Below, piece by piece: positions 8,105 through 49,543 of a DNA stretch of 50,703 nt (positions are counted from its first letter, which is position 1; every line of letters starts with the position of its first letter). The translations under genes were made by a program, and so were the position numbers. Source of the DNA: Slackia sp. GTDB taxonomy: Bacteria > Actinomycetota > Coriobacteriia > Coriobacteriales > Eggerthellaceae. A model generated the notes under the pieces. That model was not told where the DNA came from. It searched no databases and worked only from the letters and a program-made list of their open reading frames with translations. The stretch is taken from assembly GCA_029266945.1 (NCBI GenBank), contig JARIED010000015.1:1-50703 (forward strand). Direction: 5' to 3'.

Positions 8105-8133
8105 TTGACACCCTTGAGTGCGGGTGTTAAAGT
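8105..8133 (+). promoter_or_regulatory. Promoter of the rpsL-rplW ribosomal operon
   Basis: TTGACA (8105-8110), exactly 17 bp, TAAAGT (8128-8133), with TGT just before the -10 (extended -10). The -35 is perfect. Transcription from about 8140 gives a leader of about 150 bases before rpsL. The 7931-8104 stretch upstream is AT-rich for this genome and holds no gene that I can support. Confidence 0.75.
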
Positions 8134-9239: not shown

Positions 9240-11345
9240 ATGGCTAAATCCAACGATCTTCAGAATACGCGTAATATCGGTATTATGGCCCACATCGACG
9301 CGGGCAAGACCACCACGACCGAGCGTATTCTTTACTACACGGGCAAGACCCACAAGATCGGCGAGGTTCACGAAGGCGCCGCTACCATGGACTGGATGGT
9401 TCAGGAGCAGGAGCGCGGCGTGACCATTACCTCCGCAGCTACCACCTGCTTCTGGAAGAAGGACGGCACTGAGTACCGCTTCCAGATCATCGACACCCCG
9501 GGCCACGTGGACTTCACGGCCGAGGTCGAGCGCTCCCTGCGCGTTCTCGACGGTGCCGTGGCCGTGTTCGACGCCGTCGCCGGCGTTCAGCCCCAGTCCG
9601 AGACCGTGTGGCGTCAGGCTAGCCGCTACGGTGTTCCCCGTATCGCCTACATCAACAAGTACGACCGCGTCGGTGCCGACTTCTTCCATGCTATCGACAC
9701 CATGAAGGAGCGCCTGGGCGCCCCCGCGATCGCCGCTCAGATGCCGATGGGCGCAGAGGACAACTTCTGGGGCCTCATCGACCTGGTCGACATGACCGCT
9801 TGGGACTTCAAGGCTGACGAGAAGGGTATGACCTACCCCGAGCAGCTCCCCGAGATTCCCGCCGAGTTCGCCGAAGAGGCTGCTCTGCGCCACCAGGAAC
9901 TCCTCGACGCCGCCGCCGACTGCGACGACGACCTGATGGAGAAGGTCCTGATGGACGAGGAAGTCACCGTTGACGAGCTGAAGGCCGCCCTGCGCAAGGG
10001 CACCATCGCCTGCCAGCTGCATCCCGTGTTCGTGGGCTCTTCCTACAAGAACAAGGGCGTGCAGGAGCTTCTCGACGCCGTCGTCGACTACATGCCGGCT
10101 CCGACCGACGTTGCCGCCATCAAGGGCATCAACCCGGATACCGACGCCGAGGAAGAGCGTCCGAGCGATCCCAAGGCTCCGTTCTCCGCTCTCGCCTTCA
10201 AGATCATGACCGACCCGTTTGTCGGTAAGCTGACCTACCTGCGCGTTTACTCGGGCACCTTGGAGTCCGGCTCCTACGTGACCAACGCGTGCAAGGACAA
10301 GAAAGAGCGCATCGGCCGTTTGCTGCAGATGCACTCCAACCAGCGCGTCGACATCGACTCCTGCTCCGCGGGCGACATCGTTGCCGTCGTCGGCCTGAAG
10401 GACACCTCCACGGGCGACACCCTCTGCGACGAGAACGCTCCGGTCATCCTGGAGTCCATGGAGTTCGCCGACCCGGTTATCGACATCGCCGTCGAGCCCA
10501 AGACCAAGGCCGAGCAGGATAAGATGGGCCTCGCCCTTCAGAAGCTCGCCGAGGAGGACCCGACCTTCCGCGTGTCCACCAATCATGAGACCGGCCAGAC
10601 CATCATCGCCGGCATGGGCGAGCTGCACCTCGAGATCATCGTCGACCGCCTGCTTCGCGAATTCAAGGTCGAAGCTAACGTCGGCAAGCCGCAGGTTGCT
10701 TATCGCGAGCGTCCTGGCAAGGAAGTCATGAATGCCGAGGGCAAGTTCGTCCGCCAGTCCGGCGGTCGCGGCCAGTACGGCCATGCGGTCATCAACATGT
10801 ACCCGCAGGAGGCCGGCAAGGGCTACGAGTTCGAGAACAAGATCGTTGGCGGCGTGATTCCGAAGGAGTACATCCCCTCCATCGACAAGGGTATTCAGGA
10901 AGCCCTGAACTCCGGAGTTCTGGCCGGCTACCCGGTCGAGGACGTGCGCGTCGAGCTCGTCGATGGTTCCTACCACGACGTCGACTCCTCCGAGGCGGCA
11001 TTCAAGGTCGCCGGCTCCATGGCCATCAAGGAGGCTCTGCGCAAGTCCAACCCGGTCATTCTCGAGCCCGTCATGGCCGTCGAGGTCGAGACCCCCGAGG
11101 AGTACACCGGCTTCGTCATGGGCGACATCCCGTCCCGCCGCGGGCTCATCCAGGGCCAGGAGCAGCGTGGCAATGCCGTTTCCATCAGCGCGAAGGTTCC
11201 TCTGGGCAACATGTTCGGTTACGCGACCGACCTGCGTAGCGGTACGCAGGGTCGTGCGACCTACACCATGCAGTTCGACTCCTACGAGCCTGTGCCCAAG
11301 GGCGTTCAAGAGGAGATCATCAGCAAGGCCGGCGGCAACGCCTAA
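9240..11345 (+). CDS. fusA: Translation elongation factor G
   Basis: 701 residues. The GTPase domain has AHIDAGKTT, the switch DTPGHVDF and NKYD (a variant of NKMD/NKxD). Domains II-V follow, including GMGELHLEI and the domain [13 protein letters not shown] segment. It drives ribosomal translocation. The ATG at 9240 follows GGGAAGGGA. tuf does not follow; rpsJ does, 31 bases on. Confidence 0.97.
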
Positions 11346-43134: not shown

Positions 43135-43400
43135 TACCCCCGAACTTCTTTCGGGTCTGTAGTTGCGGGGGCGTTCGCGCCCCTCAGTCCATGGCAGATG
43201 CGGTCGAAAGGATCCACGTAAGCACGGCTTTGCCGGGTGAGCATGGCGTATCCTAGAAGTAAGACGCACCCTCCGGCGATTCCTTGCGGCATCCTGCCGC
43301 ACCGGGGGAGAGGGCGGAGCGGAATAATCCGCAAACCCCCGGTGCGCGAGTGTGGGGGCAAAGACTAGGTCAGCCGGAAGAAGAAACGAATCGACAATCG
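43135..43400 (+). ncRNA. Structured leader or noncoding RNA candidate, family not recognised
   Basis: An unusually long intergenic stretch dense in hairpins: CCCGAA/TTCGGG (43139-43155), GGGGCG-TTCG-CGCCCC (43168-43183), TGCGGCA/TGCCGCA (43285-43301), ACCGGGGG/CCCCCGGT (43301-43343) enclosing GCGGA-ATAA-TCCGC (43319-43332). CTTACCCCC (43133-43141) can pair with GGGGGCAAAG (43355-43364) with a mismatch, closing the whole element. I tried tmRNA, RNase P, SRP, 6S, cobalamin, c-di-AMP, c-di-GMP, lysine and TPP classes from memory and found no core match. It may be a regulatory leader of the downstream lipoprotein gene. Confidence 0.4.
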
Positions 43401-43418
43401 GAAAAGAGGAACGAAACG

Positions 43419-44504
43419 ATGAAGCATCGCGTGTCACTCGTAGGCGCGTTCGCCTGCGCCGTCTGTCTCGCGCTGGCGCTTGTCGGCTGTTCGCAGACGA
43501 CCGCGTACACCCCCGAAACGCTCGAACCCACGGTATCTTCGCCGACGATCGGCAAAGACGGCACCTTGAGGGTCGGCGTCGGCGGAGGCGCTCCCTTCAT
43601 GGTTTCCGCGTCCGACGGCTCGGCTTCGGGCCTCGACGTCGACATGGCTGCGGCGATTGCCGACCAGCTCGGCCTTAAACTCGAGGTCGTCACGCTTGGC
43701 AGCGCCGGCAGCGAGGTCGACGTTGACTCTGCTCTCAGGAAGGGCGACGTCGACATCGTCATGGGCGCCACGTCTTCCGACGAGAGCGGCAACGTGTGGG
43801 TCTCCAAGCCGTATACGCAGACGGGCGTTGCGCTGTTCGCCGCTCCGGGCTCCAAGGTTCCTTCGCGCGATGCGTCGCCGAAGATCGCCGCTCAGTCTTC
43901 CTCGACGAGCGCCTGGGCCGTCACCAACGCCTTCGGCGACGACGCCCTCGTCGCTAAGGCCGATCTTCTTTCCGCGCTTTCTTCCATCGAGACGGGCGAC
44001 TCCAAATACGTCGCGGCCGACGCGGTCATCGGAACGTATGCCGCTCTGGGTCAGAACGTCGACGTCGAGCCCGTGTGCGTGCTCGGAAGCATCGGCGGCT
44101 ACGGCGTGGCTGCCAGCGCCGATAACGCCGACCTTCAGGAGGCCGTCTCCGGCGCCCTCGAGGCGCTGGCGAACAACGGCGTCGCCGGCGTGGTCTGCTC
44201 GAAGTGGCTCGGCTCCACGCTCGATCTTTCCGCGCTGCCCCTCGTCGAGGTCTCCTCGTCCGCTGCGGCGACTACCAAGACGACGGATGCCGATGCGGCC
44301 GATTCCGGCGCCGATGCAGATGCCGCCGAGGAAGAGTCCGTCGACGGCGAGGCTCTTCCGAAGGCCGAGGCCGGATCGAATGCCGTTCTGCCCGGCGGGA
44401 CCGTCGCAGGCTCGGCGACGGGCACGGCCGCCGGAACCACAACCGGTTCGACGACGGGCGCGGCTGCTGCTACGACCGCGGGAACGGACGCCCAGGCCGC
44501 CTAA
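43419..44504 (+). CDS. Family 3-like solute-binding lipoprotein with Ala/Thr-rich tail
   Basis: 361 residues. Signal peptide with lipobox LVGC (Cys24). Residues about 44-275 resemble extracellular solute-binding protein family 3 (amino acid type): GTLRVGVGGGAPFMV, GLDVDMAAAIADQLGLKLEVV, RKGDVDIVMGA and GYGVAASADNADLQEAVSGALEAL. Residues about 275-361 are low complexity, rich in Ala, Thr, Asp and Gly, probably a disordered surface tether. No permease or ATPase genes accompany it, so it may be an orphan receptor. GAAAAGAGGA precedes the ATG at 43419. A very stable hairpin follows. Confidence 0.8.
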   Translation: MKHRVSLVGAFACAVCLALALVGCSQTTAYTPETLEPTVSSPTIGKDGTLRVGVGGGAPFMVSASDGSASGLDVDMAAAIADQLGLKLEVVTLGSAGSEVDVDSALRKGDVDIVMGATSSDESGNVWVSKPYTQTGVALFAAPGSKVPSRDASPKIAAQSSSTSAWAVTNAFGDDALVAKADLLSALSSIETGDSKYVAADAVIGTYAALGQNVDVEPVCVLGSIGGYGVAASADNADLQEAVSGALEALANNGVAGVVCSKWLGSTLDLSALPLVEVSSSAAATTKTTDADAADSGADADAAEEESVDGEALPKAEAGSNAVLPGGTVAGSATGTAAGTTTGSTTGAAAATTAGTDAQAA

Positions 44505-46696: not shown

Positions 46697-47635
46697 ATGG
46701 CGAAGCATGCCAAACACGCACGCACCGATAAAGAAGACCAGGCCGTCGGGGTCGAGGACCGCCAGGACGAGTGTTCCGCCGAGGAAGGGGAAGGCGCGCA
46801 GAAGGCCGCTCCTGCGCCGGAGCATCCGGCAACGGCGCACCATAAGGCTTCGAAAAGGATGCGCATCGTCTTGATCGTGGTGTCGGTCGTGCTCGTCCTC
46901 CTGATCGCGGCACTGGGGTATTTCGCCTGGATGCTGGTCGGCGAGGCCCGCGACGTCGCTTACCAGAGCGCCGCCCAGACCGCCAAAGTCGAAAAGGACT
47001 CTTCGCTTCCTGCCTCCGATGCGGGCAAGGGAGCGGGCGCTCGCAAAGAGGCCCCGCAGCTCGTCGAGCTGATCGGCAAGACCCAGGACGAAGCGGTCGC
47101 CGAAATCGGCCGTGGAGCGACCGAGACCAACTCCAAGGACATCACCGAGGAGAAGGGCGAAGGCGACGAGAAGACCACCGAGGTGGTGGGTCGCAGCGTG
47201 ACTTTGGCGCTTACCGACGAGACCACGGACGCGCGCGGCAACATCCCGTCGGTGTATCTGACGCTCGATGCCGACGGCGCGATCGTCGAGGCGGGCTATT
47301 CCGCATCGGTCGGTTCGCTCGGCTACGGCGACGTGAGCTTCATCGACGCGGTTTCGTCCGAGCATATCGTCGAGAATCTCGTCGCAGCGGCGGGCGTCGA
47401 TATCGAGCAGGGCTCGATCGAGATGCCTGCGGTCGAGGATTACCGCACGTATGCCGACGACGGCACGACGATCGCGCAGGAGGTCTACACCTTCAGCGGA
47501 GAAGGCACGGGCTCGGGCGATGCGACCTATTTGTGGTCGTGCAAGCTGAGCTACGATTATTCGGCCGCCAATGTGTCGGGCAATCTCGCCGACACCATCA
47601 GGCAGGTCTATGTCTACATCAATGCTGCCTCGTAA
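46697..47635 (+). CDS. Membrane-anchored extracytoplasmic protein of unknown function
   Basis: 312 residues. A charged cytoplasmic N-terminus (about 1-55, His/Lys/Glu-rich), one transmembrane helix at about 57-80, and an exported domain of about 230 residues. The segment PQLVELIGKTQDEAVAEIG near residue 119 resembles the opening of a PASTA-like or similar repeat, but only once. The rest is beta-rich and unrecognised (EVYTFSGEG, YVYINAAS). AAAGGAAGG precedes the ATG. It may act at the cell wall; no function is claimed. Confidence 0.78.
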   Translation: MAKHAKHARTDKEDQAVGVEDRQDECSAEEGEGAQKAAPAPEHPATAHHKASKRMRIVLIVVSVVLVLLIAALGYFAWMLVGEARDVAYQSAAQTAKVEKDSSLPASDAGKGAGARKEAPQLVELIGKTQDEAVAEIGRGATETNSKDITEEKGEGDEKTTEVVGRSVTLALTDETTDARGNIPSVYLTLDADGAIVEAGYSASVGSLGYGDVSFIDAVSSEHIVENLVAAAGVDIEQGSIEMPAVEDYRTYADDGTTIAQEVYTFSGEGTGSGDATYLWSCKLSYDYSAANVSGNLADTIRQVYVYINAAS

Positions 47636-47692: not shown

Positions 47693-47738
47693 TGCCGTAC
47701 GGCGAGGGTCTCTTTCCTCTGGCGCTTTAGCACTCTAT

Positions 47739-47744
47739 TATAAT
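47739..47744 (+). promoter_or_regulatory. -10 element of the broken hisZ gene
   Basis: A perfect TATAAT ends 5 bases before the ATG at 47750, so the RNA would start at the start codon (leaderless) or just after it. In the latter case the GTG/ATG codons further in would be used. Confidence 0.42.
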
Positions 47745-47749
47745 AAAGT

Positions 47750-48139
47750 ATGAATACCGATACGAGGGAGGGGCGCTGCAGTGAAGCCGATATGCCCGCG
47801 AGGGTTCAGGGGGGCATCATGCCCGGAGAGGCACTTCGCCGCGAACGGATCATCCGCACGGTGAGCGACGCGTTCGCACGACGCGGCTATCTGCCCGTCG
47901 AAACCCCGTTTCTCGAAGACAGGCGCTCGATCGAACGCGCGGCCTGCGCCGAAGACGCGGCATTCCAGCTGTTCGACAGCGATGGGGGCCTTCTGATGGC
48001 GAGAAGCGACCTGACCATTCCGATCGCGCGCCTTGTCGCCACGCGTCTCGAGCACGCTTCAGCGTCGTTCCGTCTCCGCTACGCGGCGCCCATCGTGCGC
48101 GACCAGGCACGCTTCATGGATCGTTCGCGCCAGTTCAGG
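47750..48139 (+). pseudogene. hisZ: hisZ fragment (ATP phosphoribosyltransferase regulatory subunit), 3' part missing
   Basis: About 129 residues resemble the N-terminus of HisZ, a catalytically inactive HisRS-like protein that activates HisG: GEALRRERIIRTVSDAFARRGYLPVETPFLED, MARSDLTIPIARLVATRL and FRLRYAAPIVRDQARF. Class II synthetase motif 2 follows in whole proteins, but after RSRQF (about 48136) the sequence becomes the reverse complement of the phosphatase gene. The open frame continues to 48256 only as antisense of that gene. HisZ is normally near 380 residues. hisG does not follow. This is a truncated remnant. Confidence 0.75.
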
Positions 48140-48680
48140 AAGTCGCTCAGCGGCTTGCGCAGGCCGGCCGTCGAAACCTCGACGCGCACGCCTGCGTCGC
48201 GGGCGGCCTGTGCCATCTCGTCCCAGAGCGGCGCGAGGTCGACCGAGGGGGCGTAGCCGCTCTTTTCGAAAAGGCGTACCAGGTCGGGATGGGCCATCGA
48301 ATCGAATCCGACGGGGCAGAAGCATGCCCGGCGCCAGCCTTCGACGTAGCGCCGCCATACTTCGTCGGGTCCCGCCTCGTCCCAGATGCGCATGTCATCG
48401 AGCCAGTCGACGGCGTATTCGCCGAGGTAATGGACCGATTCGATTAGAAACGTCGCGTTTCCGCGCACGGCTTCGATGTCGCGTTCGCACCCCTCGTACC
48501 AGTCGGCTTCGAATCCGAATACGATATCGATTTCGGGGTGTGCTTCGCGGCATCGGGCGATGTCGCGCGACAGGTCGGCGATGCGGCCCTCGTCGTCACG
48601 CCGCGCGCCGCCGCGTTCTGCTCGAGCGTGCTCGTTCCGTCCGAATAGACGGTGTGGGAATGGCGGTCGACCCGTTCCAT
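48140..48680 (-). pseudogene. PHP-family histidinol phosphatase, internally deleted and C-terminally truncated
   Basis: The first 20 residues are those of a PHP phosphatase: MERVDRHSHTVYSDGTSTLE with the metal-binding HxH, preceded by AAGGAAA. Around 48590-48610 the reading shifts frame; the expected region with further metal ligands is missing. The other frame resumes with DEGRIADLSRDIARCREAHPEIDIVFGFEADWYEGCE (in order), LIESVHYLG and CFCPVGFDSMAHPDLVRLF, then ends after VSTAGLRKPL. Whole proteins continue with the GSDAH-type metal motif, lost here. So two separate lesions, a deletion with frameshift and a 3' loss, make it a pseudogene. Confidence 0.78.
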
Positions 48681-48855: not shown

Positions 48856-48969
48856 ATGAGCTCTCCGCCTAGTTCGGCGCAAGCTGATGGGTCGCAAGAA
48901 TATGTTTTCGCATTTTCGAGCCCTGTCGCTATGCGCAGGGTTTTTTGTTGCAGCAACGAACTCGCATAA
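48856..48969 (+). other. Possible 37-codon leader reading frame spanning the attenuator
   Basis: ATG after AGAGGGAG opens a frame of 37 codons that covers the whole terminator hairpin and stops just before the infC ribosome-binding site. The spacing is tight and no homology is known; it may be chance. Confidence 0.25.
48921..48946 (+). terminator. Attenuator-like terminator in the infC leader
   Basis: CCCTG (48921-48925) and CGC (48927-48929) pair with GCG (48933-48935) and CAGGG (48936-48940), followed directly by TTTTTT. A terminator inside the leader of infC-rpmI-rplT is known in Firmicutes, where L20 binding controls it; here the L20 link is inference. Confidence 0.75.
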
Positions 48970-48994
48970 GCGAGAGAAAGAGGAGGTGAGCGCG

Positions 48995-49543
48995 ATAGCA
49001 GCTCAGGAGCCCAGGCTCAACGACGAAATCCGCACCCGTGAATGCCGCTTGATCGGTTACGACGGATCGCAGATGGGTATCTTCAACACGCGCGAAGCTC
49101 AGCGCATCGCCGACGGTCAGGGTCTCGACCTCGTCGAGATCGCCCCGAATGCAGAACCGCCCGTATGCCGCATCATGGACTACGGTAAGTTCAAATACGA
49201 CCAGGCCATCAAGGCGAAGCAGGCTCGCAAGAACCAGACGAAGATCGAAATCAAGGAAATGAAATTCCGTCCCAAGATCGACGTCGGCGACTACACCACC
49301 AAGAAGAAGCATGTTCTTCGCTTCTTGGAGGGCGGCGCCAAGGTGAAGATCACGATCATGTTCCGCGGTCGCGAGATGGCTCACCCCGAACAAGGCCTTT
49401 CCATTCTCGAGCGTTTGGCCGATGATTTGAAAGACGTCGCCGTCATCGAGAATGCGCCCAAGATGGAAGGTCGCAACATGCACATGCTTATTGCCCCGCT
49501 GCCGGCAAGTGCGAAAAAGGCAGCAGAGAAAGACGCCAAATAA
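48995..49543 (+). CDS. infC: Translation initiation factor IF-3, probable AUA start
   Basis: 182 residues. EPRLNDEIRTRECRLIGYDGSQMGIF, APPVCRIMDYGKFKY-like PNAEPPVCRIMDYGKFKYD, and KIEIKEMKFRPKIDVGDY identify IF3. The start is set by AGGAGG (48981-48986): ATA at 48995 is 8 bases away and gives (M)AAQEPRLNDEI, as in other IF3s. The only nearby canonical start, GTG at 48986, overlaps the ribosome-binding site. Rare AUU/AUA/AUC starts in infC are a known autoregulatory device because IF3 rejects them. First gene of infC-rpmI-rplT. Confidence 0.93.
   Translation: MAAQEPRLNDEIRTRECRLIGYDGSQMGIFNTREAQRIADGQGLDLVEIAPNAEPPVCRIMDYGKFKYDQAIKAKQARKNQTKIEIKEMKFRPKIDVGDYTTKKKHVLRFLEGGAKVKITIMFRGREMAHPEQGLSILERLADDLKDVAVIENAPKMEGRNMHMLIAPLPASAKKAAEKDAK

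Follow-up and report, generated by a model that had tools for sequence, protein, structure and literature searches.

Between a membrane-protein gene and infC, a Slackia genome (G000; assembly of 1.52 Mb in 39 contigs, 96% complete) carries pieces of two histidine genes, which raises the question of what this interval once contained, how it was lost, and whether the organism can still make histidine. The window, i.e., the whole 50,703-nt stretch of DNA that was analyzed, is one entire contig (C31) of this genome. We consider it highly probable that the feature is the deletion scar of a histidine cluster, including a single ~7.4-kb deletion and a resulting, predicted auxotrophy. The features on which this reading is built are listed in Table 1.

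Table 1. Features of the histidine interval and its flanks (window coordinates).
Feature	Position	Strand	Details
Membrane-protein gene bordering the his interval on the left	46697..47635	+	ORF; synteny at congener loci L031, L032, L074, L075, L077, L082
HisR-type operator CACTCTATTATAATAAAGTA	47731..47750	+	Upstream of the hisZ stump
5' remnant of the hisZ-hisG fusion gene	47781..48137	+	~119 of ~543 codons; native GTG start at 47781
2-bp insertion, frameshift just past the hisZ start	47809..47810	+	Pairwise alignments vs. G001, G003, G006
Deletion junction	48137..48138	.	~7.4 kb at this point in G001 and G003 (blastn)
PHP histidinol phosphatase (hisJ) remnant	48138..48680	-	Junction cuts off the 3' end with the SDAH motif
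Second deletion site in hisJ	48584..48585	-	55 nt, plus 6 + 3 nt close by; CTDH motif lost, frame shifted
infC, intact, right flank of the interval	48887..49543	+	ORF

Nucleotide alignment against intact congener loci showed the hisZ and hisJ stumps joined tail to tail at 48137/48138, with the hisZ alignment running to 48137 in G001, G003, and G006 and the hisJ alignment beginning at 48138/48139 in G001. In blastn comparisons, window position 48137 corresponded to position 709 of the G001 locus (L030) and position 48139 to its position 8133, leaving a gap of ~7.4 kb, while in a second reference (G003, L031) the two points fell at 10371 and 2968 with a nearly equal gap, and G006 was similar. 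As the two junction points sit at opposite ends of one his cluster in congeners, ~7.4 kb are missing from the window at this position; the junction itself is known from the assembled contig of a fragmented genome. The first-pass annotation, made from the sequence alone, had proposed that the hisZ frame ceases to resemble HisZ at about 48136 and continues as the antisense of a PHP histidinol phosphatase ending at the same base. Both observations were borne out, as the TIGR00443 and tRNA-synt_His matches end at residue 129-130 and the tail lies opposite an NF005596 match on the other strand (E 8e-24).

In three congeners (G001, G003, and G006), the space that separates the membrane-protein gene from infC is occupied by a cluster with the order hisZG fusion, hisD, hisC, hisB, hisH, hisA, hisF, hisI, convergent hisJ, infC, and in two others (G008 and G010) hisZG and hisJ were found there. 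The NCBIfam check covered HisB, HisH, HisI, HisJ, and the HisZ-HisG fusion; genome-wide family searches served for HisB and HisA/F, and HisD and HisC were identified in G001 from ORF translations. In the intact congener gene, HisZ and then HisG are encoded in one frame, and such hisZ-hisG fusions were noted previously (PMC9413887). The intact relatives thus have hisZ and hisJ where the endpoints were inferred, separated by ~7.4 kb of his genes. The proposal that a deletion had removed both 3' ends together with the intervening DNA stands, the latter being the rest of the his cluster, and is amended in that the broken gene is a hisZ-hisG fusion.

The matches of the hisZ frame to TIGR00443 (E 4e-21) and Pfam tRNA-synt_His (E 4e-18) were confined to the first ~111 positions of the profile, and with 75 bits against a TIGR00443 cut-off of 271.65 (profile positions 4-111 of 314) the frame is a remnant of HisZ. 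Its descent from the hisZG gene of the same locus is indicated by 89% identity to the G001 fusion over residues 18-129, with the upstream gene and the operator shared. The start had been thought intact, which is refuted by the 2-bp insertion: this puts the native GTG out of frame, and the frame read from it stops after 27 codons. A longer forward frame, open for 168 aa from an ATG at 47750 across the junction (in-frame ATG at 47792, stop at 48256), is an accident of the same insertion. That its portion from ATG 47792 to the stop could encode a small working protein descended from the N-terminus of HisZ seems to us extremely unlikely. The length of the open frame and the conserved operator upstream speak for such a product, but the native start is out of frame, the tail is read from the antisense of hisJ, the frame is absent from the sister genome G007, and 7-8 replacement changes have accumulated in the stump (none on the G001 branch), some of them at positions otherwise invariant among the compared sequences.

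The opposite stump shares 78%, 75%, and 68% identity with the hisJ beside infC in G001, G003, and G006, respectively, which marks it as a descendant of the hisJ that converges on the his operon at this locus. It retains the HSH motif near the N-terminus, whereas CTDH was lost to the 55-nt deletion and SDAH to the junction, so it is no longer an intact HisJ. An internal deletion with a frameshift had been suspected near 48600, and alignment with intact congener hisJ located it: 55 nt are gone after 48584, and together with the adjacent 6 and 3 nt the small lesions amount to 64 nt net, which is not divisible by three. We rejected the idea that a PHP phosphatase paralog at G000:C5:17266-17682 has taken over from HisJ, since related copies of similar identity occur in congeners with and without his genes and the remaining missing enzymes would not be compensated.

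Six-frame family searches of the G000 genome returned no match to PF01634 (HisG), PF00815 (HisD), or PF00475 (HisB), and for HisA/HisF only weak partial PF00977 matches of the kind seen across congeners. Matches to PF13393 (HisS/HisZ) were limited to a full hisS on C37 and the hisZ stump, so that the suggested genome search for hisG, hisD, hisB, and an intact hisZ found none of them; these absences refer to six-frame searches of a 96% complete assembly. The view that the locus records the loss of histidine biosynthesis is thus upheld by the stumps in place, the enzymes absent from the genome, and the cluster intact in congeners. With hisG, hisD, hisB, and hisA/F missing, G000 has the genomic profile of a histidine auxotroph, and the organism is predicted to be unable to make histidine and to need its import. 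A literature search on histidine auxotrophy in Slackia retrieved nothing relevant.

We propose that a complete, probably HisR-regulated cluster (hisZG-D-C-B-H-A-F-I) with a convergent hisJ would originally have filled the interval from the membrane-protein gene to infC, and that one deletion of ~7.4 kb would have extended from hisZ codon ~119 to ~57 codons short of the hisJ end. Small indels and amino-acid changes are present in both stumps besides the large deletion, and histidine would be obtained by import, perhaps via an amino-acid ABC transporter whose HisR operator has been kept. An assembly artefact, in which the contig misjoins the ends of an intact his cluster whose middle was lost from the bin, is very improbable: the assembly is fragmented and the window is a whole contig, but no his gene lies elsewhere in the assembly, a misjoin could not produce the independent indels in both stumps, and the cluster is also missing from sister G007. 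Stepwise loss, with small indels decaying the cluster before one or more deletions removed it, is possible, though we favor it clearly less than the single deletion. At least two further small lesions are present, the interval is fully clean in G007 and G004, so erosion can reach completion, and several smaller deletions could give the same end state; against this, both endpoints lie inside the terminal genes of the cluster and share one clean junction, which makes a single deletion the simplest account. Both the number of events, one, and its timing with respect to the small lesions are inferred. Pooled nonsynonymous to synonymous changes in the stumps were 32:36 on the G000 branch and 12:33 on the G001 branch, and as this weak, outgroup-dependent test gave a Fisher p of 0.03 with G003 as outgroup and of 0.18 under the stricter use of two outgroups, relaxed constraint on the stumps is only suggested.

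Across the genus, HisG, HisB, and HisA/F are present in 9 of 12 members, the exceptions being G000, G007, and G004. A tree of six flanking genes joined G000 and G007 with 100% support and placed G004 elsewhere, although G001, the tree neighbor of G004, contributes little sequence to it. Identity to G000 is higher for the cluster-bearing G003 (86.6%) than for the his-less G004 (84.2%), so the genus has likely lost the locus at least twice, in separate events, and the more distant G004 probably lost its his locus independently. In sister G007, which lacks hisG and hisB, ~130 bp separate the membrane-protein gene from the infC leader, and no his remnant scored above chance when the empty intervals of G007, G004, G005, and G009 were searched. 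As the interval is empty in G005 (C89, L077) and G009 (C21, L082) and their his genes are on other contigs, the cluster also appears to have been relocated within the genus. The his cluster of Slackia exigua (G002, C1:300001-320000, L038) showed only 43% identity in HisG, a short separate frame, and 27-38% in pieces of HisZ to the congeneric HisZ-HisG, and this weak similarity together with the separate frame suggests a foreign replacement.

HisR is a TrpR-family histidine repressor also found in Eggerthellales/Coriobacteriales, with the Gram-positive consensus cacTTTAnnnnnnTAAAgtg (PMC9413887). The predicted site upstream of the hisZ stump, CACTCTATTATAATAAAGTA, differs from it by 1-2 mismatches and is equally placed upstream of hisZ in G001, G003, G006, G008, and G011. 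A hisR-type gene is present in the genome, i.e., a TrpR-family gene at C37:105121-105366 (89.8 bits to YerC/YecD TIGR02531), and a TrpR/YerC-type gene is kept in all of the his-less G000, G007, and G004. The best site in G000 is a perfect palindrome, CACTTTAGCATGCTAAAGTG, at G000:C9:73632-73651 (L206 4633-4652), which precedes an amino-acid ABC transporter operon by ~50 bp, and perfect or near-perfect palindromes occur ~50-70 bp upstream of an ABC-transporter gene in all six genomes examined (G000, G001, G003, G004, G006, and G007). By NCBIfam, the binding protein and the permease fall in the polar amino-acid group, which fixes no single substrate. Most simply, the organism would have given up biosynthesis and kept regulated import, with HisR binding at these sites predicted and histidine the presumed substrate of the transporter. 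We give hardly any credence to the idea that the orphan operator, possibly with a truncated HisZ peptide, is kept by selection, e.g., to tune the level of free HisR and with it the expression of the histidine importer.

With palindromes counted on both strands, HisR-like sites (≤ 1 mismatch) clearly exceeded a reversed-pattern control in most genus members (21 vs. 1 in G008), and for this reason the HisR regulon may reach beyond the histidine genes; G011, without a TrpR-family match, had few such sites. In S. exigua, a HisR-type site CACTCTATTCTAATAAAGTA lies at G002:C2:590016-590035, ~1.8 kb from infC, and was checked as a possible relic of a his locus lost in that species; no hisZ or hisJ sequence surrounds it. 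Elsewhere in the window (43284-44504), a solute-binding-protein-like gene upstream of suf genes has counterparts in the ORF lists of G003 and G006.

The scar shows the bounds within which an actinobacterial lineage with a small genome lost a complete biosynthetic pathway, and as an intermediate it stands between the intact cluster and the remnant-free interval, so that three stages are found within one genus. It predicts histidine auxotrophy with retained HisR-controlled uptake, and it carries a warning for annotation, as neither a working hisZ nor a histidinol phosphatase should be called here.

As in other reductive losses of amino-acid biosynthesis operons in host-associated bacteria, the whole pathway is gone, stumps remain at the original locus, and the flanks are syntenic. 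Compared with the usual operon loss, this case is unusually clean, and since both outer genes survive as joined 5' stumps, tail to tail, the deletion can be delimited with single-base precision. The congener gene resembles known HisZ-HisG fusions of ATP phosphoribosyltransferase, of which the first ~119 HisZ codons alone remain here. Likewise, the remnant and its intact relatives match the HisJ family (TIGR01856 / NF005596), the remnant being without CTDH and the C-terminal SDAH. The likeness to the described HisR regulon (PMC9413887) lies in the 20-bp operator before hisZ and the amino-acid ABC transporter and in a hisR-type gene that is not clustered with his; the difference is that the hisZ operator is orphaned here, whereas the one before the transporter is perfectly palindromic. 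The pathway loss is ordinary and of a known kind, and its scar is unusually legible.
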